A program made the translations under genes and the position numbers. A model generated the notes under the pieces. That model did no database searches. It was not told where the DNA came from and saw nothing but the letters and a program-made list of their open reading frames with translations. This document shows, piece by piece, positions 13,222 to 58,360 of a stretch of DNA of 64,000 nucleotides. The stretch comes from Longimicrobium sp. Lineage in GTDB: Bacteria > Gemmatimonadota > Gemmatimonadetes > Longimicrobiales > Longimicrobiaceae. Location of the stretch: positions 1 to 64,000 of the forward strand of contig NZ_DATIND010000107.1 in the NCBI RefSeq assembly GCF_035474595.1, read 5' to 3'. Positions within the stretch are counted from its first letter, which is position 1. Every line of letters starts with the position of its first letter.

Positions 13222-13354
13222 CGAGAATCTCCAGCCCGGGTGGATGTGAAACGGCGCGGGACCCCGGGGAGCGTCCCGTCGCGCGGCGAAAAACTTCGAC
13301 AAACGGAAGTGCGAGGTACGGAGTGCCGGAAGCGCCCGGCCAGACTCCGACAGT

Positions 13355-13475
13355 CCTAAGTCCTAAGTCCTAAGTCCTAAGTCCTAAGTCCTAAGTAACT
13401 GCGTCTCCTGCTCTCCGTGCGCACTCGGCACTCAGCACCCACTTGGGACTTAGGACTTGGCACTTAGGACTTCTT
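13355..13475. repeat. Heptamer array (AGTCCTA)n with inverted partner
   Basis: Bases 13355-13398 contain about six units of AGTCCTA; bases 13441-13475 hold inverted units (ACTTGGGACTTAGGACTTGG), so the two arms could pair as a long stem. It separates mfd from the PPIase lipoprotein gene. The gap 13222-13486 has no gene. Confidence 0.8.
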
Positions 13476-25122: not shown

Positions 25123-27393
25123 ATGGCAAGAGCACACACCCTGACCGACGACTTCCGGGACGGGGTCATCGACACCGCCAAGTGGTCCACCTTCGGCGGC
25201 GCGCTGGTGGCCGAGCGGAGCGGAACCATCCAGGTGCGCCCGAAGGTGGCCAACGACTACGCGGGCATCACCTCCATCGACGCGTACGACCTCCGCGATT
25301 CGGAGGTGAAGGTGCGGCTGCGGCGTACGCTGCGGCAGACGAATGGCACCGACAACTACCTCGACGTGGCCGTGGACTCGGACAACCGCGTGACCATGGG
25401 CATCGACTCGGGGCTGCTGTACATCGTCCTCACCGTGGCCGCGGGGAAGACGACGCTCACCGGGCTGGGCGTGCCGTACGACCCCGACGCCCACCGGTGG
25501 CTGCGCTTCCGCGAGAAGGGCGGCACGCTCTTCTGCGAGACCTCGGGCGACGACGAGACGTGGACGGTGCAGGCCAGCCTTCCCGACCCGTTCGACCTCT
25601 CGGCCATGATCCTGGAGATCGGCGCGGGGATCTGGGACCCGGTGGCCTCGCCCGGCGTGGCCGTCTTCGACTCGTTCAACCTTCGCCAGCAGCCCGCGCG
25701 CACCGTGGACGAGCGGCGCCTGGGCGCGCTGGGCACGCGCGAGAAGGCGGCGCGGCTGGCGGCGTCGAAGCCGCACCCCGAGCACCTGAACAACGACGAC
25801 GAGGTGAGCTACCTCGCCACGCCCTTTGCGGGGAACTTCTCCAAGGGGCTGAAGCACGACTCGGTGGGCGATCCGGACCCGGCGACGTACGCCATCCTCC
25901 TGCGCGCGCTGGAGAGCCGCGAGCCCGACGACTTCGAGGAGATCGTCCTCGGCGGGGCCAAGAAGCTCACCAACCCGCAGTCGGGGCTGAGCTTCGACGT
26001 GATCGGGCCCGACGCGCAGGCGGTGACCATGCCGCCGGCGCCGCGCTTCGACAGCGTCGTCGCCGCGCACGAGGAGGGCGAGCTGTACTGGATGGCCGTC
26101 GCGCGCGACGTGCCGTTCATCAACTACGGCAGCAACGCCATCATCACCGCCGCCGTGAATTCGCTGAACTCCGAGTTCCCGCGCTTCGGCGGCACCACGC
26201 CGGTGACCGCGCAGAACGTCTTCCGCGGCGTCTACCCCGGCGAGCAGGTGGGGCCGTACGTCAGCCAGTTCCTGTGGAAGGGGAACGCCGACCCGCGCAA
26301 GCCCGACGGCGCCGGGCGCGACGCCGACGAGGGGTACATCACCTACGGCATCCAGTTCATCGACCAGCGGCTGCAGGCGGTGGCGCAGAACGTGGACTAC
26401 CTGACCGACGTCACCGGCTGGCTGGCGGTGCAGAACGGCGCCGACCGCCGCGGGCAGGACCAGTTCGAGACCACGCGCCGCTTCATCCGAAGCCTGCGCG
26501 ACGGCACCAACTTTGTGCACTTCGACCAGGTGGTGAACGCCTGGTGGAACGCCGCGTTCATCCTCCTTTCCGAGCCCACCGGGAACCAGCTCACCGGCGT
26601 GGGCGCCGGGCGGCCGCAGGTGGACATGGAGTTCCCGTTCGACCAGGGGAACGCCTACGACCGGCCGGGGACGGCGATGGACAGCAAGACGCAGGTCGGC
26701 TTCGGCACCTTCGGCCCCCTGCACCTGCTGGAGCTGCTGATCGAGGTCTCCACCCGCGCCGCGCGCGCCGTCTGGTTCCAGAAGTGGTTCGTCCACCGCC
26801 GCCTGCGCCCCGAGGAGTACGGCGGGCGGGTGGACAACCAGATCGCCGGGCGGCGCAGCTACGGCGGGGCGATCGACGCCAGCCTCATCACCTCGCTGCA
26901 GACCGGCGGGCTGTCGGCCTACTACGGGGCGGGGAAGAAGTTCACCACGCGCCTCCTCCCGCAGGCGTACCCCGAGGGCGCGCCCACGCACCCCGCGTAC
27001 GGCGCGGGGCACGCGACGATCTCGGGCGCCTGCGCGACCATCCTGAAGGCGTTCTTCGACGAGGGCGCGGCCATCGAGAACCCGGTGCAGGCCGCGGCCG
27101 ACGGGCTGTCGCTGGTCGCCTACACCGGCCCCGGCGCGGCGCAGATGACGGTGGGCGGCGAGATCAACAAGCTGGCCGGCAACATCGCGCTCTTCCGCAA
27201 CGCGGCCGGCGTGCACTGGCGCAGCGACTACACCTTCTCGCTCCTGCTGGGCGAGGAGGTGGCCATCCGCATGCTGCAGGAGCTCTCGCTGACGTACAAC
27301 GAGGACTACGCCTTCTTCCAGCTCACGCGCTTCGACGGCACCACCGTCGTTATCCGCAAGGGCAGGGTCGACCTCTTCCCGCCTGAGGAGTAA
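25123..27393 (+). CDS. Vanadium-haloperoxidase-like protein 1, with N-terminal beta-sandwich
   Basis: 756 aa from the ATG at 25123 (AGGAG ten bases upstream); no signal peptide is apparent. Residues 1-190 look like a LamG/DUF1349-type beta-sandwich. The rest is a PAP2-superfamily haloperoxidase of the algal bromoperoxidase type: KWFVHRRLRP near 550 (Lys then Arg eight residues on), HPAYGAGHAT near 622 and RNAAGVHWRSD near 691 (Arg-x5-His). The active-site PSGH motif reads GAGH, so the serine that touches vanadate is missing. Such enzymes oxidise halide with peroxide; activity here is unproven. The next gene is a close paralogue. Confidence 0.85.
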   Translation: MARAHTLTDDFRDGVIDTAKWSTFGGALVAERSGTIQVRPKVANDYAGITSIDAYDLRDSEVKVRLRRTLRQTNGTDNYLDVAVDSDNRVTMGIDSGLLYIVLTVAAGKTTLTGLGVPYDPDAHRWLRFREKGGTLFCETSGDDETWTVQASLPDPFDLSAMILEIGAGIWDPVASPGVAVFDSFNLRQQPARTVDERRLGALGTREKAARLAASKPHPEHLNNDDEVSYLATPFAGNFSKGLKHDSVGDPDPATYAILLRALESREPDDFEEIVLGGAKKLTNPQSGLSFDVIGPDAQAVTMPPAPRFDSVVAAHEEGELYWMAVARDVPFINYGSNAIITAAVNSLNSEFPRFGGTTPVTAQNVFRGVYPGEQVGPYVSQFLWKGNADPRKPDGAGRDADEGYITYGIQFIDQRLQAVAQNVDYLTDVTGWLAVQNGADRRGQDQFETTRRFIRSLRDGTNFVHFDQVVNAWWNAAFILLSEPTGNQLTGVGAGRPQVDMEFPFDQGNAYDRPGTAMDSKTQVGFGTFGPLHLLELLIEVSTRAARAVWFQKWFVHRRLRPEEYGGRVDNQIAGRRSYGGAIDASLITSLQTGGLSAYYGAGKKFTTRLLPQAYPEGAPTHPAYGAGHATISGACATILKAFFDEGAAIENPVQAAADGLSLVAYTGPGAAQMTVGGEINKLAGNIALFRNAAGVHWRSDYTFSLLLGEEVAIRMLQELSLTYNEDYAFFQLTRFDGTTVVIRKGRVDLFPPEE

Positions 27394-27810
27394 GCAGGAG
27401 GTGAGATGGCGTCCCTTGACCCCGTAGATCGAAGCGGGGATCGGGGGATTGGGATGAGATAGGAAGATGCGGGGCCGCCGACGCCCCCGCCCGCCACAGC
27501 GGCGGGCGGGGGCGTCGTGCGTCCGCGGTTCGGGATGGAGATGGAGATGGAGATGGAGATGGAGATGGAGATGGAGATGGAGATGGAGATGGAGATGGAG
27601 GAACCGAGATCGTGGCCGCCGCAGGCCCGCCACCCGGCACAGCGCCCGGGCTCACGGCTCCGTCACCGCGACGGAGCGACACGCGGTCTTCCCCGCGCGA
27701 GCGGACGCGCCTCCGGCGCGCCGCCCCGGGGATGTGGGCCGCACGGGAAACGGCCGCCGCGCATTCCGGCGCGGCGGCGGGCAGCCACGCACGCGGATGG
27801 AGAGATCACC
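27394..27810 (+). promoter_or_regulatory. GC-rich structured leader of haloperoxidase 2, with (GGAGAT)n tract
   Basis: No gene. A strong hairpin GACGCCCCCGCCCGCC/GGCGGGCGGGGGCGTC lies at 27480-27516. Bases 27533-27600 are a perfect hexamer microsatellite of GGAGAT units (about 11). The segment from 27466 (GAAGATGCGGGGCCGCCGAC) recurs upstream of the third copy near 30182, so the leader was duplicated with the gene. Confidence 0.6.
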
Positions 27811-30108
27811 ATGCCGAAAGCCGTGACCCTCGTCGACAACTTCGGCGACAACACGACCGACACCACGAAGTGGAACAGCTTCGGACCGGTCCAGGAGGTG
27901 AACCAGCGGCTGGAGATCCGGCCGCCCAGCAGCGGCAGCAACGTGTACGGCGGCTACGTCTCCGCCGGCAGCTACGACCTCACCGGCTCGCAGATCGTAG
28001 TGGAGCTGGTGCGGGCGCTGCGCAGCAACCTCGACGGCGCGGAAACCTATCTGCACGTGAAGAACAGCGCGGGGGACCACCTGTTCTTCAAGGTGCAGGA
28101 CGCACTCTTCTACTGCACGAAGCTGGCGGCGTCCGCCACCTCGTCCACGCACCTGGCCGAGGCGCCGTACGACCCGGCGCGCCACCGCTGGATGCGCATC
28201 CGCGAGCAGCTGGGCACGCTGTTCTTCGAGTACTCGGCCGACGGGTGCGAGTGGGAGCTGTTCGTCGCCATTCCCACCCCGTGGAGCCTGACCTCGGTGG
28301 TCATCGAGCTGGCCGCCGGCACCTTCACCCCGGGCGCGTCGCCGGGCGTGGCCATCTTCGACAACGTGAACACGCCCGAGACCTCGCGGGCGCGGCGCGT
28401 GGAGGAGCGGCGCCTGTCCGCGCGCGACGTGCGCGTCGAGGCCGCCGAGCTGATGGCCGAGCGGCGCCACGACGAGCACCACAACAACAACGACGAGGTG
28501 AACTACCCGCAGGCGCCGCTGGTGGGGAGCTTCTCCAAGAGCCTGAAGCACGACGCGGTGGGCGACCCGGACCCGGCGAGCTACGCCACGCTGCTGCGCG
28601 CGCTGGAGAGCCGCGACCCGGCGGACTTCGAGGAGATCCAGCTGGCGTCGCCCACCGCGCTGAAGCTCACCAACCCGCAGACCGGGCTCACCTTCGACCT
28701 GGAGGGGCCCGACGCGCAGGAGATCACCCAGCCGCCGGCGCCGCGCTTCGACAGCCGCGTCGCCGCGAACGAGGCGGGCGAGCTGTACTGGATGGCGGTG
28801 GCGCGCGACATCCCCTTCATCAGCTACGCCTCCGACAGCACCATCAACACCGCGCTCAACTCGCTGAGCGGCGAGTTCCCGGAGTTCGGCGGCACCACGC
28901 CGGTGACGACGCAGAACATCTTCCGCGGCATCTACCCGGGCGAGCAGGTGGGGCCGTACGTGAGCCAGTTCCTGCTGAAGGGGAACGTGGACCCGCGCAA
29001 GCTGCCGGGCCTGGGCCGCGATGCCAGCGACGGATACGTGTCGTACGGCGCCAAGATCATCGACCAGCGCGTGGTGCCGCAGAAGCCCGGGGTGGACTAC
29101 CTGACCGTCTTCAGCGACTGGCTGGCCGTGCAGAACGGCACCGACAAGCGCGGCAACGACCAGTTCGGCGCCACGCGCGTGTTCATCCACACGCTGCGCG
29201 ACGGCGCCACGCTGGTGCACTTCGACCAGGTGCTGAACGCGTACTACGACACCGCCTGGATCCTGATGACGGAGCCGACGGGGAACCAGCTCACGGCCGC
29301 GGCCGCCACCGGGCGGCCGCAGATCGACCTGGAGTTCCCCAAGGACCAGGGGAACCCGTACGACCCGCCGGGCACGGCGATGGACAGCCGGACGCAGGTG
29401 GGCTTCAACACCTTCGGCCCCACGCACCTGCTGCAGGTGCTGGGCGAGGTGCTGGGCCGCGCGCTGCGGGCGGTGTGGTACCAGAAGTGGTTCGTGCACC
29501 GCCGCCTGCGCCCCGAGGAGTACGGCGGGCGCGTGGACAACCACATCACCGGCCGGCGCACGTACCTCACCAGCAGCAGCACGCCGCTGATCCACCCCAG
29601 CATCCTGAACTCGCTGCAGACGGGGCTGCTGGCGCCGTACTACGGCGGGCAGGCGGGCGACAAGTTCCCGAGCTACCTGCTGCCGCAGGCATACCCCGAG
29701 GGCGCGCCCACGCACCCGGCGTACGGCGCGGGGCACGCCACGGGCTCGGGGGCGATGGCCACGATCCTGAAGGCGTTCTTCGACGAGAGCACGCCCATCG
29801 AGAACCCGGTGCAGGCCGATGCGACCGGCACGTCGCTGGTGCCCTACACCGGCGCCGACGCCACCCAGATGACCGTGGGCGGCGAGCTGAACAAGCTGGC
29901 CGGCAACATCGCGCTCTTCCGCAACGCGGCGGGCGTGCACTGGCGTACCGACTACTCCGAGTCGCTGGTGCTGGGCGAGGCCATCGCCATCGGCCTGCTG
30001 CAGGAGCAGAGCCTGGGCTTCAACGAGGACGACGCATACTTCCAGCTCACCAAGTTCGACGGGACCACGATCCGCATCTTCGACGGGAAGGTAGTCCCCG
30101 TCACGTGA
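27811..30108 (+). CDS. Vanadium-haloperoxidase-like protein 2, with N-terminal beta-sandwich
   Basis: 765 aa, a clear paralogue of the gene at 25123 over its whole length (shared runs such as YWMAVARD, YVSQFLLKGN and YPEGAPTHPAYG). The N-terminal sandwich (1-195) is more diverged than the enzyme domain. Active-site motifs are at about 558 (KWFVHRRLRPEEYGG), 636 (HPAYGAGHATGSGA) and 703 (RNAAGVHWRTD). As in copy 1 the serine of PSGH is alanine. There is no signal peptide. The C-terminus ends with a strand motif FDGTTIRIFDGK, also kept in the broken third copy. Substrate unknown. Confidence 0.85.
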   Translation: MPKAVTLVDNFGDNTTDTTKWNSFGPVQEVNQRLEIRPPSSGSNVYGGYVSAGSYDLTGSQIVVELVRALRSNLDGAETYLHVKNSAGDHLFFKVQDALFYCTKLAASATSSTHLAEAPYDPARHRWMRIREQLGTLFFEYSADGCEWELFVAIPTPWSLTSVVIELAAGTFTPGASPGVAIFDNVNTPETSRARRVEERRLSARDVRVEAAELMAERRHDEHHNNNDEVNYPQAPLVGSFSKSLKHDAVGDPDPASYATLLRALESRDPADFEEIQLASPTALKLTNPQTGLTFDLEGPDAQEITQPPAPRFDSRVAANEAGELYWMAVARDIPFISYASDSTINTALNSLSGEFPEFGGTTPVTTQNIFRGIYPGEQVGPYVSQFLLKGNVDPRKLPGLGRDASDGYVSYGAKIIDQRVVPQKPGVDYLTVFSDWLAVQNGTDKRGNDQFGATRVFIHTLRDGATLVHFDQVLNAYYDTAWILMTEPTGNQLTAAAATGRPQIDLEFPKDQGNPYDPPGTAMDSRTQVGFNTFGPTHLLQVLGEVLGRALRAVWYQKWFVHRRLRPEEYGGRVDNHITGRRTYLTSSSTPLIHPSILNSLQTGLLAPYYGGQAGDKFPSYLLPQAYPEGAPTHPAYGAGHATGSGAMATILKAFFDESTPIENPVQADATGTSLVPYTGADATQMTVGGELNKLAGNIALFRNAAGVHWRTDYSESLVLGEAIAIGLLQEQSLGFNEDDAYFQLTKFDGTTIRIFDGKVVPVT

Positions 30109-30465: not shown

Positions 30466-30967
30466 ATGGCAAAGGCAATCACCCTCGTCGACAACTTCGG
30501 CGACAACGTGACGGACGCCACGAAGTGGAGCGCGTTCGGTCCGGTCCAGGAAGTCAATCAGCGGCTGGAGATCCGGCCCGTCAGCGGGGCGAGCAACAGC
30601 TTCGGGGGATACAACTCCGTCTCGGCCTTCGACCTCACCGACTCGCAGGTTTCGGTTGAGGTGGTGCGGGCGCTGCGCGGTGTCAAAGGCTGTGAGATGT
30701 ACCTGCACGTGCAGAACGCCGCGGGCGACCACCTCTTCTTCAAGGTCGAGGCCGGAACGCTTTCCTGCAGCACGCAGCCGGCGTCGGCCACCGCGGACAC
30801 GGGCCTGGCCCAGCTCCCGTACGATCCCACGCGCCATCGGTGGATGCGCATCCGCGAGCAGTTTGGAATCGTGTACTTCGAGTACTCGGCCCGCCTACTT
30901 CGAGCTCACGAAGTTCGACGGCATCACCATCCGCATCTTCGACGGCAAGGTGGTTCCGGCGCTGTAA
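30466..30967 (+). pseudogene. Third haloperoxidase copy, catalytic domain deleted
   Basis: The first 142 codons match the N-terminal sandwich of copy 2 (AITLVDNFGDNVTDATKW, RHRWMRIREQFG, YFEYSA). Directly after that, in another frame, comes AYFELTKFDGITIRIFDGK, the last 25 residues of copy 2, ending at the TAA at 30965. About 1.8 kb coding the whole enzyme domain has been removed, and the join (near 30889) changes frame. The words TACTTCGAG occur on both sides of the join, which suggests deletion between short repeats. Read through in the first frame the ORF would end at 31080 with an unrelated basic tail. Confidence 0.85.
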
Positions 30968-39052: not shown

Positions 39053-42000
39053 ATGCTTCGCAACCTGAGCAGATTCCTGCTGGTCCTGGGCGCGGCCGTT
39101 CTGGCCACCGCCCCGGGCCTTTCCGCGCAGACCGGCGGCCAGCCGGTGCGCGGCGACGTGGACGGCGACGGCCGCGTGACCGCGGCCGACGCCCGCATCG
39201 TCGCCGACTACCTGGTGGGCCGCACGGTCCCCGCCGGCATCGACGTGGCCGCGCGCGGCGACGTGAACGGCGACGGCCGCGTGACCGCGGCCGACGCCGC
39301 GATCATCAACGCCTACGCCGCCGGCCGCGAAAACGCGAAGCGCTTCCCGGTGGGCACGCCCATAACCACGGTGCCGAACCCCGACGGGCTCGCCGCCTTC
39401 GTCTGCGGCGCCGACGTCCGCGCCCGCACCGTCACCTGCGAGGCTCCGAAAAACGGCAACGTGCGCGGAGCGACCATCGGCGGCCAGCACGAGAACGTGG
39501 AGATCGCCTCGTCGAACATCGCCTCGACGCTCAACGGCTCGACCTACGACTTCAGCTTCGACGTCACGCTGAAGAACCTCGTCCCGCAGAAGCTGGGGAC
39601 GGAGGACGGGCTGACCGCGGACTCGATCCACGTCTTCTTCTTCACGCCCCCCACCGCCGACGCCGGGACCGGGCAGATCACGGTCGACAGCGCCGGGATC
39701 GGCACCTTCACGGCGAGCAACCAGACGTACTACAGCTATCCCGGGCTCCTGGCCGACTCGGCCACCACGCCGGTGCGGCGCTGGTTCTTCAAGATCCCGG
39801 ATTCGGTCACGCACTTCCAGTTCCTGCTCTACGTAGACGCGAAGCTGCAGTTCCCGTCGGGGTGGGTCGACATCTACCCGCCCACGCACGCGCCGAGCCC
39901 CTACCTGGTTCCCACGAACACGCTCGCGGCGGGGGCCACGCTCCAGCTCGAGGACACCGTTCGCAACCACCTCGGGCACGTGGTGACCGGCCAGGCCGTG
40001 ACCTGGTCCATCACCGGCCACGGCGCCGCCACGGTGAACGCGTCCACCGGGCTGGTGACCGCCGGTGCTCCGGGCGTGGACACCGTCACCGCCACCAGCG
40101 GGTCGCGCACGGGCCGCGTGGAGATCGTCGTGACCGCGGGCGCGCCGGCCAGCATGATCAAGAAGCCCGGCCATGACAGCACCACCGTCGTCGCAGGGAA
40201 CAACGTCCCGGCGGACTCCCTTCCCACTGTCAAGGTCACGGACAGCGGAGGGCACCCCGTACCGAACGTAGCGGTTACCTTCACGCTTTCGCCCGACAGC
40301 GGGTCCCTTGCCAATGGATCCAGCACGGGGTCGTTTGTGATCGACAGCACCGATGCCGCGGGCGAAGCGTCGGTTACGGGGTGGACGCTCGTGCATACCG
40401 CGGGCGTGTATAATGTGATCGCATCGTCACCCGGGCTCACGGACGTGACCTTCACTTCCACCGTGAAGCATGGTGCGCCGGCCAGCATGGCCAAGGTGCC
40501 CGGGCACGACAACGCGAGCGCGGTCGTGAACACCGGCGTGCACGCCGATTCGCTCCCCTCGGTGCTGGTCACCGATACCTACGGCAATCCTGTGCCCGGT
40601 GTGGGCGTCACCTTCGCGGTGGCTTCGGGTGGCGGGAGCGTGACGGGCGGCAGCCAGACCACGAACGCCTCCGGTATCGCAACGGTGGGGAGCTGGACCG
40701 TCGGCACTACCGCCGGAGCCAACACGGTGAATGCCACGTCGGCGGGCCTCAGCACGCTGACCTTTACGGCAACCGGGCGGCCAGGCGATCCGGCGAACAT
40801 CGAGAAGACCGCGGGCGACTTGCAGACCGGCACCGCAGGCTCGCCGGTGGCGATTCCGCCGGCGGTGCACGTGACCGACGCATTCAACAACGATGTTCCG
40901 GGCGCCACCATCAACTTCACCGTAATCGGCGGAGGTGGAAGCACCACGGTAGCTTCTCCCACGACTGATGCCTTCGGGAAAGCAGCGGTGGGGAGCTGGA
41001 CGCTGGGCTCCGGGCCCACGACGAACCAGCTCCAGGCCGCTGCGGCGGTGGGCACCGCTGCGCCGGACACCTTCACGGCGTATATCCCGCCGGTTGCCGC
41101 CACGGACCTGTCACAGGCGATGGGGAACCAGTTGCTGCCCAGCAGCTTCGTTCCAAACGTTCTTGCGAACGACGTCACGATCAACGGCGGCTCGCTGACG
41201 GTCACGACGCTGGACTCACTGACCACTGCCCGTAACGGGCGTGTGATCATCACCGCGGCGGGCGCGGCGACTTTCGTCCCCGCTGCCGGCGTGACCGGCC
41301 GCGACAGCGTGCAGTACACGATCAACGACGGGCACGTGTCTGCCAGCGGCTGGCTGAAGTTCGCCTTCATCGGCAAGGTGTGGCACGTCGACCAGTCGTA
41401 CGCGGGGGCGGCGGGCGCCGCCGACGGCCGCGACTTCCGTCCGTTCACTTCGATCTCGGCCGCCGAGGCGGTGGCGGGGTTGAACGACACGATCCTGGTG
41501 CACACCGGCGGCGGCCTGACCACGGGCGGCACGCTCAAGAACGGCCAGACACTGCGTGGCCAAGGGCACACGGCCCCCTTCACGGCCACGATCAACGGCC
41601 AGTCGCTGACGCTTCTGCCGATGGGCGTGGCGCCGCAGGTAGGCGGGCTGACGCTCGGGAACGGCAACACGCTGCGTGGCTTCCGCGTGGTGAACGCGTC
41701 CGGCTTCGGCCTTACCGGTGCCAGTATCGGCACGCTCTCGCTGGGCGAACTGGCGATCAACGCAACCGGCGGCCCAGCGCTCGACATCACCGGCGGCACC
41801 GTGGTGGGAATCGGCGGTACCGGTGCGGCCGTGCTGGACTCGGTGAGATCGACCAACAGCACGAGCAGCGGTATCGCGCTGACGAACGTCGGCGGCACGC
41901 TGACGATCAACGGCGGGACGGCGAGCGCGATCACCAACCCGACGGGCGCGGCGGTGAGCATCAGCGGAAGCAACCCGACGTTCAACTTCCCCGGCGCGAT

Positions 42001-43711
42001 CTCGAAGACGAACGGGGCCGGGACGGGGATCAACCTGAGCGGGATGACGGGCGGATCGGCGAGCTTCACGGGCCCGAGCATCGCGCTGACGACGGGGTCG
42101 GGGACCGCGATCAACCTGTCGAGCGTGAGCGGGCCGGTGACGTTCAGCAGCCCGAGCGTGGTGCTGAGCACCGGGTCCGGCGCGGGCGTCAACATGTCGA
42201 GCGTGACGGGCACGGTGAGCTTCGTGGACTCGGTGAAGGTCACTACCGGCAGCGGCAACGGCATCAGCGCGACTGGCGGCGGGACCCTGACGATCGCCGG
42301 GACGCACAACTCGATCAGCTCCACGGGCGGCATCGCGCTGAACGTGAGCGGCACCACGATCGGCGGCACGGGTCTGAACTTCCGCAGCATCAGCGCGAAC
42401 GGCGGCAGCAACGGGATCGTGCTGAGCAGCACCGGCGCGGGCGGGCTGACGGTGAGCGGGAGCGGCACCACGGGTTCGGGCGGAACGATCTCCAACACCA
42501 CGGGCGCCGACGGCGCGGTGGCGGGGAACGGGATCTACCTGAGCAACGCGCAGAACGTGAGCCTGAGCTGGATGGCGCTGAACAATCACGGCAACCACGC
42601 GATCTATGGTTCGTCGGTGACGGGCTTCACGATGAACAAGACGCGGATCACCGGCACGAACGGGTCGAGCACGGCGACGGACGACGGGAGCGTGTCGTTC
42701 GACAACCTGCTGGGCTCGGCCTCGATCACGAACAGCTACGTGGACGGCGGGTTCGAGGACAACGTGCGGGTGGTGAACAACACCGGGACGCTGAACCGCC
42801 TTGTCATGACGAGCGACACCGTGGGGTTCAACGGGACGAGCGGTAACGACGGGGTGAACATCGCCGGGTTCAGCTCGGCGGTGGTGAACGCCACGGTGCA
42901 GAACAGCCGGTTCACCGGGTCTCGGGCGAACAACATCTCGTACGTGATGAACGAGAGCTCGTCGGGCGACGTGCTGATCAGCGGGAACACGCTGACGAAC
43001 ACGCACCCGAACAAGCTGGGAAGCGACTTCGGGATCTACGTGGCGCACGCGAGCACCGGCGCGGTGACCTACTCGGTGACGGCCAACTCCGTAAACGGCG
43101 CTGGCGGGTCGGGGATCGAGGTGGACCGCGGCGCGGGCGGCACGGGCGCGATGACGGGCAGCATCACGAACAATACCGTGGGCACCGCAGGCGTGTCGAA
43201 CTCGGGCTCATCGGGGGGCTCGGCGATCTTCGTGGGGCTGGTGAGCACCACCGAGACGGCGACGCACACGACGACGATCACCGGGAACACGGTCCGGCAG
43301 TTCACGAACTACGGGCTGCGGATCGTGAACCGCGGGGCGACGGCGAGCTACCTGAACGCGTCGGTGAAGAGCAACAATGTGGCGGAGCCGTCGCCGAACG
43401 CGGCGACGGGCCTCTTCCCGACGAGCGGGATCCGGTTCGAACTGGGCAACGTGACGGGTGACACCGGGAAGAGCTGCCTGGACGTGGCCTCCAACGTGAT
43501 CAACCAGACGGGCACCAACGGTGGCGTCGAATTGCGGATCTTCGGACGCTTCCTTACCAAGACGGCGCTTCCGGGCTTGGGGCTCGCCGGCGCGTCGAGC
43601 GACCCCAACACCTTCCTGAACAGCAAGAACACGATCACCGTGCCTGCGGGTGGAACCGCGGTGAACGCCACCAGCACCAACGCCTTCCAGAGCACCTGCC
43701 CGCCTGCGTGA
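39053..43711 (+). CDS. Secreted dockerin / Ig-like / beta-helix surface protein (1552 aa)
   Basis: Signal peptide 1-25. Two dockerin F-hand repeats at 34-56 and 69-91 (GDVDGDGRVTAADARIV and GDVNGDGRVTAADAAII), with the calcium-binding Asp/Asn pattern. A Big_2-like domain is at about 288-362, three Big_1 (invasin/intimin-like) domains at about 363-670 (each opening APASM or DPANI and containing VTD.GNPVP), and a cadherin-like VLANDV domain at about 680-770. From about 775 to the end is a Gly/Asn/Ser-rich parallel beta-helix (many SGNTL and NNTV turns). It looks like a surface or extracellular adhesin or scaffold protein docking to the cohesin-like lipoprotein encoded just before it. Confidence 0.82.
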   Translation: MLRNLSRFLLVLGAAVLATAPGLSAQTGGQPVRGDVDGDGRVTAADARIVADYLVGRTVPAGIDVAARGDVNGDGRVTAADAAIINAYAAGRENAKRFPVGTPITTVPNPDGLAAFVCGADVRARTVTCEAPKNGNVRGATIGGQHENVEIASSNIASTLNGSTYDFSFDVTLKNLVPQKLGTEDGLTADSIHVFFFTPPTADAGTGQITVDSAGIGTFTASNQTYYSYPGLLADSATTPVRRWFFKIPDSVTHFQFLLYVDAKLQFPSGWVDIYPPTHAPSPYLVPTNTLAAGATLQLEDTVRNHLGHVVTGQAVTWSITGHGAATVNASTGLVTAGAPGVDTVTATSGSRTGRVEIVVTAGAPASMIKKPGHDSTTVVAGNNVPADSLPTVKVTDSGGHPVPNVAVTFTLSPDSGSLANGSSTGSFVIDSTDAAGEASVTGWTLVHTAGVYNVIASSPGLTDVTFTSTVKHGAPASMAKVPGHDNASAVVNTGVHADSLPSVLVTDTYGNPVPGVGVTFAVASGGGSVTGGSQTTNASGIATVGSWTVGTTAGANTVNATSAGLSTLTFTATGRPGDPANIEKTAGDLQTGTAGSPVAIPPAVHVTDAFNNDVPGATINFTVIGGGGSTTVASPTTDAFGKAAVGSWTLGSGPTTNQLQAAAAVGTAAPDTFTAYIPPVAATDLSQAMGNQLLPSSFVPNVLANDVTINGGSLTVTTLDSLTTARNGRVIITAAGAATFVPAAGVTGRDSVQYTINDGHVSASGWLKFAFIGKVWHVDQSYAGAAGAADGRDFRPFTSISAAEAVAGLNDTILVHTGGGLTTGGTLKNGQTLRGQGHTAPFTATINGQSLTLLPMGVAPQVGGLTLGNGNTLRGFRVVNASGFGLTGASIGTLSLGELAINATGGPALDITGGTVVGIGGTGAAVLDSVRSTNSTSSGIALTNVGGTLTINGGTASAITNPTGAAVSISGSNPTFNFPGAISKTNGAGTGINLSGMTGGSASFTGPSIALTTGSGTAINLSSVSGPVTFSSPSVVLSTGSGAGVNMSSVTGTVSFVDSVKVTTGSGNGISATGGGTLTIAGTHNSISSTGGIALNVSGTTIGGTGLNFRSISANGGSNGIVLSSTGAGGLTVSGSGTTGSGGTISNTTGADGAVAGNGIYLSNAQNVSLSWMALNNHGNHAIYGSSVTGFTMNKTRITGTNGSSTATDDGSVSFDNLLGSASITNSYVDGGFEDNVRVVNNTGTLNRLVMTSDTVGFNGTSGNDGVNIAGFSSAVVNATVQNSRFTGSRANNISYVMNESSSGDVLISGNTLTNTHPNKLGSDFGIYVAHASTGAVTYSVTANSVNGAGGSGIEVDRGAGGTGAMTGSITNNTVGTAGVSNSGSSGGSAIFVGLVSTTETATHTTTITGNTVRQFTNYGLRIVNRGATASYLNASVKSNNVAEPSPNAATGLFPTSGIRFELGNVTGDTGKSCLDVASNVINQTGTNGGVELRIFGRFLTKTALPGLGLAGASSDPNTFLNSKNTITVPAGGTAVNATSTNAFQSTCPPA

Positions 43712-43722
43712 CGCGGGCAGAT

Positions 43723-43763
43723 CCGGACGCCCACTCCCCCCCCCCGGGAGTGGGCGTCCGGTT
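43723..43763 (+). terminator. Terminator after the 1552-aa gene
   Basis: CCGGACGCCCACTCCC (43723-43738) pairs perfectly with GGGAGTGGGCGTCCGG (43746-43761), then TTG. It separates the cohesin-dockerin genes from the tail-collar genes. Confidence 0.8.
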
Positions 43764-43819
43764 GCTGGGCCCGCAGGATCTCGATGTAGTACCTCCATCC
43801 ACCCCACGCAGGAGGCGTC

Positions 43820-44317
43820 ATGTCGGAACCCTTCCTGAGCGAGATCAAGATCGTCTCGTTCAACTTTCCACCCAAGGGATGGGCGCTCTGTAACGGCCAG
43901 TTTTTGCCGATCAATCAGAACCAGGCGCTGTTCGCCCTCCTCGGGACCACGTACGGCGGCAACGGACAGACAACGTTCGCGTTGCCCAATCTGCGGGGAA
44001 GGCTTCCCATCCACATGGGTAGCGGCCACACGCTGGGAGAAGCCGCGGGGAGCACCAGCGTCACGGTCAACATCCAGCAGCTCGCCACGCACATGCACGC
44101 CCTGATGGCCACGGATCAGAACGGGGCGATCGCGAACCCGACGAATGCCTACCTCGGGGCGGTCAACAACATGTACGGCCAAGCCACGAGCCTCACGACC
44201 ATGAACCAGGGCTCGGTCACCAGCGTGGGCGGGAGCCAGCCCCACAACAACATGATGCCGTACCTGGTGCTGAACTTCATCATCGCGCTCCAGGGCATCT
44301 TCCCCTCCCAGAACTGA
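43820..44317 (+). CDS. Tail-collar (microcystin-dependent-protein-like) protein 1
   Basis: 165 aa, start with AGGAGG seven to ten bases upstream. Residues 5-65 are the phage tail collar domain: PFLSEIKIVSFNFPPKGWAL, LPINQNQALFALLGTTYGG, TTFALPNLRGR. The rest is a His/Asn-rich region (ATHMHALMAT, GGSQPHNNMMPYL) that occurs in tail fibres and related bacterial proteins, and ends GIFPSQN. No signal peptide. First of three tandem homologues with 16-base gaps, clearly one operon. True phage structural genes are missing nearby, so a bacterial function is more likely than a prophage. Confidence 0.88.
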   Translation: MSEPFLSEIKIVSFNFPPKGWALCNGQFLPINQNQALFALLGTTYGGNGQTTFALPNLRGRLPIHMGSGHTLGEAAGSTSVTVNIQQLATHMHALMATDQNGAIANPTNAYLGAVNNMYGQATSLTTMNQGSVTSVGGSQPHNNMMPYLVLNFIIALQGIFPSQN

Positions 44318-44333
44318 CCGGAGACAAACCCCA

Positions 44334-44855
44334 ATGGCACAGCCTTACGTGGGCGAGATCCGGATGTTCGCCGGAACCTTCGCGCCCGTCGGATGGATGT
44401 TCTGCGAGGGCCAGCAGCTGCCCATATCGGAGAACGACGTTCTGTTCCAGTTGATCGGCACTACCTACGGCGGGGATGGCGAGGAGACGTTCAATCTTCC
44501 CAACCTGGCCAGCCGCGCGCCCATGCACATGGGTACCGGCCCCGACGGCACGACATACCAGATCGGCGAGATGGCGGGGACCGAGCAGGAGACGCTGACC
44601 GTTCAGCAGATCCCCAATCACACGCACCCGCTGACCGCGAGCACCGCTCTCGGCAACCAGCCGAATCCGAGCGGCGCGGTGCTGGCCCAGACCCCCGCCA
44701 GCATCAACCCCTATATCGAAGACACGCCGGCGGTGAACATGGCGGCCGGGGCCATCTCACCGGCGGGTGGAAGCCAGCCGCACGAGAACATGCAGCCCTA
44801 CCTCGGCATGAACTTCATCATCTCCCTGTTCGGGGTCTTCCCGAGCCAGACCTGA
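44334..44855 (+). CDS. Tail-collar (microcystin-dependent-protein-like) protein 2
   Basis: 173 aa. Same plan as the first copy: PYVGEIRMFAGTFAPVGWMF, QQLPISENDVLFQLIGTTYGG, ETFNLPNLASR, then QQIPNHTHPLTAST and GGSQPHENMQPYLGMNF, ending GVFPSQT. Starts 16 bases after copy 1. The variable middle (QPNPSGAVLAQTPAS) differs most from its neighbours, as in tail-fibre tips. No catalytic motif. The three proteins may assemble together, as collar-domain proteins often do; this is inference. Confidence 0.88.
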   Translation: MAQPYVGEIRMFAGTFAPVGWMFCEGQQLPISENDVLFQLIGTTYGGDGEETFNLPNLASRAPMHMGTGPDGTTYQIGEMAGTEQETLTVQQIPNHTHPLTASTALGNQPNPSGAVLAQTPASINPYIEDTPAVNMAAGAISPAGGSQPHENMQPYLGMNFIISLFGVFPSQT

Positions 44856-44871
44856 GAGGAGCGGAATCCCC

Positions 44872-45396
44872 ATGTCCGACCAGTTCGTTGCGGAGATCCG
44901 CATCTTTCCGTTCAACTTCCCGCCGACGGGGTGGGCGTTCTGCGATGGGCAGCTGATGCCCATCTCGCAGAACACCGCGCTCTTCTCCCTCCTTGGCACG
45001 GTATACGGGGGCGACGGGAAGTCGACCTTCGCGCTTCCCGACCTGCAGGGCTCTACGCCGGTGCAGCCCGGCCAGGGCCAGGGCCTTTCGGAGCGTATCC
45101 TGGGTGAGCAGTCGGGTGTCGAGTCGATCACCCTGCTGGTGTCGGAGATCCCGGTCCACACGCACTCGCTGCGTGCCTCGATCGAGCCGGGCGACAACAG
45201 CGTTCCGGGCCCGAACATCGCGCTCTGCACCTCGACGGGTGCGTTCGCCTACGTGGGAGGAAGCCCGGCCACCGCCCCCATGGCGTTCCAGGCGCTGCCG
45301 CCCGCGGGCGGGGGGCTGCCGCACAACAACATGCAGCCGTACCTGACGCTGAACTTCTGCATTGCACTGCAGGGAATCTTCCCGCAGCGTCCGTAG
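44872..45396 (+). CDS. Tail-collar (microcystin-dependent-protein-like) protein 3
   Basis: 174 aa with GAGAGGAGCGG upstream. Collar domain: QFVAEIRIFPFNFPPTGWAF, GQLMPISQNTALFSLLGTVY, KSTFALPDLQGS. C-terminal region has PVHTHSLRASIE and GGGLPHNNMQPYLTLNFCIA, ending GIFPQRP. Starts 16 bases after copy 2, closing the trio. It is followed by a hairpin at 45422-45443 and then by a GNAT acetyltransferase gene, an association seen beside other collar-domain genes as far as I recall. Confidence 0.88.
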   Translation: MSDQFVAEIRIFPFNFPPTGWAFCDGQLMPISQNTALFSLLGTVYGGDGKSTFALPDLQGSTPVQPGQGQGLSERILGEQSGVESITLLVSEIPVHTHSLRASIEPGDNSVPGPNIALCTSTGAFAYVGGSPATAPMAFQALPPAGGGLPHNNMQPYLTLNFCIALQGIFPQRP

Positions 45397-57020: not shown

Positions 57021-58229
57021 ATGCTGCGACTGGACGACATCCGCGCCGCCCGCGAACGCATCGCGGGGCGCCTGGTGCTGACCCCCTGCACGCCCAGCGA
57101 GGCGTTCGGCGAGATGTTCGGGGGGAAGGCGTTCTTCAAGTTCGAGAACCTGCAGCGCACCGGCTCGTTCAAGGAGCGCGGCGCGCTGAACACCATGCTC
57201 TCGCTGCCGCCCGACGAGATGCGGCGCGGGGTGATCGCCGCCAGCGCCGGGAACCACGCGCAGGGAGTGGCCTTCCACGCGCGGCGGCTGGGGATCCCCG
57301 CCACCATCGTGATGCCCGAGCGCACGCCGCTGATCAAGGTGTCGAACACCGAGCGCTACGGCGCGCGCGTGGTGCTGCACGGCAGCGTGTACGACGAGGC
57401 GATGGCCATGGCGATGGAGATCCGCGCGCGCGAGGGGCAGGCGCTGATCCACCCCTTCGACATGGACCCGGTGATCGCGGGGCAGGGAACGATCGGGCTG
57501 GAGCTGCTGGAGCAGTGCCCGGAGATGGACGTGGTGGTGGTGCCCGTGGGCGGCGGCGGGCTGATCTCGGGAATCGCGATGGCGATCAAGGAGATGCGCC
57601 CCGGGGTGCGCGTGGTGGGCGTGGAGTCGGCCGTGCTCCCGGCGGCGCTCCGGGCGCGCGAGGCGCACGCGCGGGTGACCATTCCGCCGGCGGAGACGAT
57701 CGCCGACGGGATCGCGGTGCGCATCGTGGGCGAGAACACCTTCGGGCTGATCGAGAAGTACGTGGACGAGCTGGTGGCGGTGGACGAGGAGGAGATCGCC
57801 TCGGCGGTGCTGCTGCTGCTGGAGCGCGAGAAGACGGTGGCCGAGCCCGCGGCGGCGGCGTCCGTCGCCGCCGCGGTGTACGGGCACCTGGGCGGGCTGG
57901 TGGGGAAGAACGTGGTGATGCTCCTTTCCGGCGGGAACGTGGACGTGACGCTGATCTCGCGCATCATCGAGCGCGGGCTGGTGAAGGACGGGCGGATGGC
58001 GCGGATGAACGTGCGCGTGAAGGACCGCCCGGGAACGCTGGCCACGCTGACCGCGTGCCTGGCCGAGAGCGGCGCGAACATCGTCTCGCTGGAGCACCGC
58101 CGCGGCCACGGCGAGATCTGGGTGACCGAGGCCGAGGTCGCGCTCACGCTGGAAACGCGCGGCCCGGACCACGTCGAGGACATCGCGCGGAAGCTGGGGG
58201 AGGCGGGGTATGTGGTGGAGCGGGAATGA
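57021..58229 (+). CDS. ilvA: Threonine ammonia-lyase with ACT domain
   Basis: 402 aa from the ATG at 57021. Fold type II PLP enzyme: FENLQRTGSFKERGA holds the PLP lysine, SAGNHAQGVA and PVGGGGLISGIA bind cofactor, and the region near residue 320 closes the catalytic domain. A short ACT-type domain (MNVRVKDRPGTLATLTACLA, VTEAEVALTLETRG) ends the protein, as in the shorter one-ACT type. It makes 2-oxobutyrate from threonine, the first step to isoleucine or a catabolic step. Its stop codon TGA is the first base triplet of a heptamer array. Confidence 0.93.
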   Translation: MLRLDDIRAARERIAGRLVLTPCTPSEAFGEMFGGKAFFKFENLQRTGSFKERGALNTMLSLPPDEMRRGVIAASAGNHAQGVAFHARRLGIPATIVMPERTPLIKVSNTERYGARVVLHGSVYDEAMAMAMEIRAREGQALIHPFDMDPVIAGQGTIGLELLEQCPEMDVVVVPVGGGGLISGIAMAIKEMRPGVRVVGVESAVLPAALRAREAHARVTIPPAETIADGIAVRIVGENTFGLIEKYVDELVAVDEEEIASAVLLLLEREKTVAEPAAAASVAAAVYGHLGGLVGKNVVMLLSGGNVDVTLISRIIERGLVKDGRMARMNVRVKDRPGTLATLTACLAESGANIVSLEHRRGHGEIWVTEAEVALTLETRGPDHVEDIARKLGEAGYVVERE

Positions 58230-58360
58230 GTGCTGAGTGCTGAGTGCTGAGTGCTGAGTGCTGAGTGCTGAGTGCTGAGTGCTGAGTGCTGAGTGCTGAG
58301 TGCTGAGTCCTAAGTCCTAAGTCCTAAGTCCTAAGTCCTAAGTCCTAAGTCCTAAGTGCT
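58227..58360. repeat. Double heptamer array: (TGAGTGC)n then (TAAGTCC)n
   Basis: About 11 perfect units of TGAGTGC (58227-58304), then about seven of TAAGTCC, in direct tandem, the longest heptamer tract in the window. It begins inside the ilvA stop codon. Confidence 0.9.

Follow-up and report, generated by a model that had tools for sequence, protein, structure and literature searches.

Two adjacent genes of Longimicrobium sp. (Gemmatimonadota) encode proteins, here termed P1 and P2, that resemble algal-type vanadium bromoperoxidases, lack the serine of the vanadate site and carry about 190 extra residues at the N-terminus. Are such proteins still haloperoxidases, and what might the additional head be for? 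We analysed the pair within a window of 64,000 nucleotides (contig NZ_DATIND010000107.1, positions 1 to 64,000), in which the following features were delineated.

25123..27393, forward strand: P1, predicted concanavalin-like N-terminal domain (residues 1-189) and haloperoxidase homologue (residues ~195-756)
25123..25689, forward strand: N-terminal beta-sandwich of P1, predicted by AlphaFold2, fold matches and phrog_14065
27394..27810, forward strand: P1-P2 spacer with a GC-rich inverted repeat (GCCCCCGCCCG/CGGGCGGGGGC) and a GATGGA repeat (27534-27600)
27811..30108, forward strand: P2, paralogue of P1 with the same two domains (61% identity)
27811..28386, forward strand: predicted N-terminal beta-sandwich of P2
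30109..30465, forward strand: spacer between P2 and a third copy, homologous to the P1-P2 spacer
30466..30966, forward strand: broken third copy, N-terminal domain to about residue 143, then the last ~22 enzyme codons in another frame

Organization of the gene pair

P1 and P2 comprise 756 and 765 residues, respectively, and are most likely translated from the ATG codons at 25123 and 27811. These starts are preferred over longer GTG frames (24883 and 27517) because a purine-rich, ribosome-binding-like site precedes each ATG and the N-terminal MA/PKAxTL of both proteins is kept in fused relatives. The longer frames were rejected as upstream read-through; the MEMEMEM run in the second is merely the translated spacer repeat. 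This repeat, 11.2 perfect units of GATGGA in the P2 leader, could differ in length between cells and change P2 expression. Perfect or near-perfect heptamer arrays also occur elsewhere in the window, at 13352-13396 (AGTCCTA, 6.4 units) and 58227-58360 (TGAGTGC, 19 units).

The enzyme part is of algal-type haloperoxidase descent

Comparison of P1 with solved structures returned the Corallina, Acaryochloris and Ascophyllum bromoperoxidases (1qhb, 7qvw, 1up8, 5lpc and 1qi9) at E values of about 4e-89 (1qhb) to 8e-67, which as sequence matches are far beyond chance. A full-length AlphaFold2 model of P1 (mean pLDDT 83, alignment of 36 rows) recovered the same PDB entries in Foldseek, with 1qhb at E 4e-38 and a TM score of 0.81 on the target. 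Both fold and sequence descent are therefore shared with the algal/cyanobacterial-type vanadium haloperoxidases. Together with the mutual identity of 61%, these matches bear out the original prediction that P1 and P2 are paralogous homologues of such enzymes.

Lys-x7-Arg, Arg-x5-His and GAGH, the motifs singled out in that prediction, are present in both proteins, which thus have the motif 1 Lys and Arg and the motif 3 Arg and axial His of the vanadium haloperoxidases. In the alignment, P1 Lys554, Arg562, His623, Gly629, His630, Arg692 and His698 are the counterparts of Corallina Lys398, Arg406, His478, Gly484, His485, Arg545 and His551; this Corallina site numbering, which is general background on the family, agrees with the alignment. 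Ala628, within HPAYGAGH, occupies the place of Ser483, so that six of the seven vanadate-site residues are kept. Motif 2 accordingly reads Ala-Gly-His rather than Ser-Gly-His in P1 and P2, and we therefore call them homologues with a Ser-less site, not members proven by function.

The vanadium bromoperoxidases of Corallina officinalis and C. pilulifera (1qhb, 1up8 and 7qwi) share the enzyme fold and the Lys, two Arg, Gly and three His residues with P1 and P2, which differ from them by Ala for Ser483, Trp for Arg395 and the 190-residue head. The bacterial enzyme of Acaryochloris marina, AmVHPO (5lpc and 8q21), also has the algal-type fold, but lacks the sandwich head and has Arg425 where P1 and P2 have Trp. 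The Ascophyllum nodosum enzyme (1qi9) shares the fold, is more distant (E 8e-67) and likewise lacks a fused head. The Trp lies three residues before the motif 1 Lys and is found in all 62 relatives compared, whereas Corallina and Acaryochloris have Arg. Trp at this position has been reported for the Curvularia and Ascophyllum enzymes (PMC11871015), and is also present in the C. pilulifera mutant 7qvw. By sequence, it hints at a wider halide range. It is not decisive for chloride use, because Trp or Phe at the Arg395 site increased chlorination in C. pilulifera and barely altered it in A. marina (PMC11871015).

Alanine at the motif 2 serine recurs among relatives

The variation at Ser483 was followed in 63 aligned sequences, namely 1qhb and 62 relatives, some of which are paralogues from one genome. 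The relatives were chosen by the pattern [HN]P.[YF][GP].GH, which fixes Gly484 and His485, nearly fixes His478, and leaves Ser483, Lys398, Arg406, Arg545 and His551 free. Ala was the commonest state at the Ser483 site (44 sequences), followed by Ser (15), Gln (3) and Thr (1). The equivalents of Lys398, Arg406, His478, Gly484 and His485 were invariant, the last two because the pattern fixes them, and those of Arg545 and His551 nearly so. GAGH occurs in Nostoc, Acidobacteria, Planctomycetota, Verrucomicrobiota, Azospirillum and Prauserella, and some of the Ala-bearing relatives have a Tat-type export motif. On a tree that omits the two variable motif columns, at least nine changes were counted at the Ser483 site with the neighbouring positions fixed, a figure that is approximate given the quick method, several open forks and long branches.

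These comparisons count against the suggestion that GAGH marks an altered enzyme, and a special loss in P1 and P2 was rejected, as Ala is common among relatives. Judged from the alignment, Ala at the Ser483 site looks like a tolerated natural variant rather than a sign of changed chemistry. As background that carries no weight in this reading, the S402A mutant of Curvularia chloroperoxidase reportedly retains part of its bromoperoxidase activity. The alignment with known bromoperoxidases that had been proposed as a check was carried out as described, and agreed with the expectation of no serine at the motif 2 site, the other six vanadate residues being intact. Streptomyces NapH1 and Mcl24 are active although they lack the motif 2 His (PMC13198595). 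At this vanadate-contacting position, the repeated swap between Ser and Ala in nature offers a ready set of variants for probing the role of the serine.

The N-terminal head is a predicted concanavalin-A-like sandwich

When P1 is aligned with Corallina 1qhb, the N-terminal ~190 residues lie ahead of residue 4 of the latter. Modelled alone, residues 1-189 of P1 gave a confident fold (AlphaFold2, 28 rows; pLDDT 94.9, pTM 0.90), and when the whole protein was modelled, a few residues of low confidence (188-191) separated the head from the enzyme. The possibility that the head is a piece of the enzyme fold was rejected on the basis of this alignment and separate folding; as modelled, it is a genuine additional domain with a concanavalin-A-like sandwich fold, in keeping with the fused sandwich originally proposed. 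Its nearest folds are the C-terminal sandwich of GH43 xylosidases, GH16 glucanases and ERGIC-53, and VIA Z scores of 15.9-18.6 over 158-179 residues place it in the concanavalin-A-like lectin/glucanase fold. The GH16 catalytic motif E-x-D-x(1,2)-E is absent from all 17 N-terminal domains inspected, and a glucanase was rejected on this ground. Comparison with solved structures gave no convincing sequence match, so no ligand of the head can be named.

Outside the bacterial family of the window, the head relatives found were phage or viral-contig proteins, several of them tail proteins, together with a single protein from a Streptomyces genome (L076) that resembles the phage proteins in size and layout. 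The heads are related to phrog_14065, a phage tail-protein domain (E 1.4e-15 and 5.9e-27, the latter for P1), and the best viral fold match was a protein of Streptomyces phage BRock (TM 0.84 on the query). The domain shared with phrog_14065, phrog_5313, Kromp gp22 and Ponzi gp58 is about 27-31% identical. In Streptomyces phage Kromp, gp22 is encoded between tail and lysis genes, and in Streptomyces phage Ponzi the relative (gp58) stands behind a family 46 glycoside hydrolase domain; unlike P1 and P2, these tail-region proteins have no haloperoxidase. Head relatives were detected at 27 loci of viral contigs, and of five viral-contig proteins scanned, three matched phrog_5313 (function not assigned) and one a minor tail family. 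We infer that the head was transferred from phage to bacterium.

Fused and unfused forms in Gemmatimonadota

Among 298 genomes drawn from Gemmatimonadota, enzyme and head occurred in the same seven, all belonging to the family of the window. Every head in the 298 genomes belonged to an enzyme frame, to a frame truncated by a contig end but containing enzyme sequence, or to the broken third copy. The nearest named records to the proteins are Gemmatimonadota MAGs. The same genomes also contain unfused enzyme copies (L003, L020-L022 and L026, and L004 with GSGH). The fused state changed three times on the tree; the fusion was therefore gained or lost more than once. Unfused relatives elsewhere (Nostoc, Acidobacteria, Planctomycetota, Verrucomicrobiota and Saccharothrix) mostly show 40-48% identity, and many have HPAYGAGH.

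Several other arrangements were observed. One haloperoxidase homologue (L036:2077-4698) has a different N-terminal extension of ~300 residues, beta-helix-like by eye and without a Pfam or PHROGs match. In three genomes a beta-helix protein lacking an evident signal peptide directly follows a haloperoxidase gene (L130:14255-15430, L133:10756-11898 and L143:4949-6031); one of these proteins matches Pfam Beta_helix at E 2e-9. At G000:C152:77275-80310 (L138, L144), an unfused GAGH paralogue adjoins an ATP-grasp-like gene, assigned by eye with no Pfam match, and a short Cys-rich peptide whose leader, MRKLxLNxxELVVQSFPT, is conserved, a layout like that of ribosomal-peptide clusters. The same arrangement occurs at G008:C173 (L142, L145), where the ATP-grasp-like protein is 73% identical, and seven further copies of that gene in the genus sit elsewhere. 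Homologues with HPSYPAGH (L123-L126) were found on four long contigs (95-619 kb) of a viral collection, their viral origin being putative.

Tandem copies and divergence of head and enzyme

The third copy in the window, with its spacer, matches P2 and its spacer at 77% over 491 bases (blastn, beginning in the spacer), followed without a gap by 66 bases at 86% to P2 in another frame. The two P2 segments are ~1.8 kb apart in P2 and contiguous in the third copy, which is an internally deleted and frameshifted pseudogene. As both spacers are homologous and each has a GC-rich inverted repeat, the duplicated unit was spacer plus gene. Three fused copies in tandem were also found in other species (genomes G008, G004 and G009). 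The G008 array has the same position as P1 and P2, between recQ and an acyl-CoA dehydrogenase gene, both flanking names being assigned by eye.

The neighbouring G009 copies L019 and L025 are 94% identical in the enzyme part and 47% in the head, and identity drops abruptly close to the domain border, which points to domain exchange or gene conversion. Their four-fold sites differ at 0.11 in the enzyme versus 0.52 in the head (p 2e-10), a gap that faster evolution of the head protein does not explain. L017 and L024 of G008 showed the same direction (p 0.008). For P1 and P2 the corresponding values, 0.30 and 0.42, were not significantly different (p 0.12), and in the orthologue-like pairs L014/L015, L010/L014 and P2/L008 head and enzyme were about equally different. 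The difference between same-genome and between-genome pairs had a p of 0.13; permutation of labels on whole-nucleotide distances yielded 2 of 5000, but with the mean carried by a single G009 pair. Heads evolve faster in most pairs, and faster evolution therefore accounts for much of the pattern. A general rule of constant enzyme and variable head was rejected, clear support being confined to G009 (p 2e-10 and 3.5e-4) and G008 (p 0.008).

Cellular location

Consistent with the original prediction of no signal peptide, the first 75 residues of P1 and P2 contain no hydrophobic stretch, the highest 15-residue mean hydropathies being 0.79 and 0.89. That this should be odd was not upheld: a Tat-type motif is present in 15 of the 62 relatives, all unfused bacterial proteins of other phyla, and in none of the Gemmatimonadota set. 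A contractile tail or injection system was rejected as the export route, as the phage sheath family PF04984 (Pfam) had no match in the genome itself and was detected in three control genomes. With neither signal peptide nor sheath, the proteins would be cytoplasmic, freed by lysis, or exported by another route. The window also encodes, at 39053-45396, a protein of 1552 residues that has dockerin and Ig-like domains and, after it, three phage-tail-collar proteins. A link between this collar triplet (43820-45396) and the haloperoxidases was rejected because in other genomes of the genus the triplet and the fused enzyme lie on different contigs (for instance C73 versus C121 in G001, C1 versus C3 in G009). 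Most genomes of the genus have such a collar triplet.

Proposed function and alternatives

Taken as a whole, we consider it probable that P1 and P2 are functional haloperoxidases with a diversifying binding head. Given their descent and site residues, an active haloperoxidase is likely, and in closely related pairs the enzyme part has dN/dS values of 0.2-0.5; the replacement of Ser483 counts against this reading. Vanadate would be held by Lys554, Arg562, His630, Arg692 and His698 and, with H2O2, would oxidize bromide or iodide, possibly also chloride, to hypohalous acid. The concanavalin-like head, kin to phage tail-protein domains, would anchor the enzyme to a glycan or another surface; such binding is likely by analogy with the phage relatives, whose function is itself putative. 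Lacking a signal peptide, the protein may, however, remain cytoplasmic, which would leave a surface-binding head without a target outside. In tandem arrays the head would diversify while the enzyme part is kept or homogenized.

An attractive extension is modular halogenation, in which a constant haloperoxidase is combined with exchangeable phage-derived heads in tandem arrays, so that a single oxidant-producing enzyme would have several addresses in one cell, such as the surfaces of rival cells or phages. One case backs this extension strongly and another moderately; we regard it as doubtful. Rather unlikely is an ordinary haloperoxidase whose N-terminal domain is purely structural or serves oligomerization and binds no ligand. 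The missing signal peptide and GH16 motif would suit such a domain, as would its constant company with the enzyme in the sampled Gemmatimonadota; against it, the head folds separately and confidently, with a low-confidence joint to the enzyme, the unfused paralogues L020-L022 and L026 manage without it, and its relatives are located in phage tail genes.

We think it unlikely that halide oxidation is lost or shifted in the Ala variant and that the proteins are phosphatases or other PAP2-type acid-base enzymes. Residues 602-716 of P1 match Pfam PAP2 weakly (E 0.017), the scores of 15.3 and 13.5 bits lying below the curated cut-off of 27.2, and site residues are sometimes tied to function in Streptomyces, where K324 and S427 of NapH1 have been named as markers of selective enzymes (PMC12871659). 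Every vanadate residue but this one is nevertheless retained, as is the counterpart of the algal-type His478, the Ala/Ser exchange recurs across the tree, and NapH1 and Mcl24 are active without the motif 2 His. That the paralogues are functionless relics drifting after duplication is very improbable: the third copy is a pseudogene and dN/dS between P1 and P2 reaches 0.72 in the enzyme part and 1.1 in the head (a crude Nei-Gojobori estimate), but the P1 and P2 frames are open with site residues intact, related pairs in other species have dN/dS values of 0.1-0.5, and the array position is the same in a second species.

The preferred reading, haloperoxidases with a binding head, connects an enzyme class described chiefly in seaweeds and marine microorganisms with a binding module that phages also have, here within Gemmatimonadota; the literature searched held no paper combining 'Longimicrobi' with haloperoxidase. 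The head is what sets these proteins apart; their enzyme part, one widespread natural substitution aside, looks ordinary. Should the heads bind defined glycans, these proteins would be natural examples of halide oxidation placed on a chosen surface.
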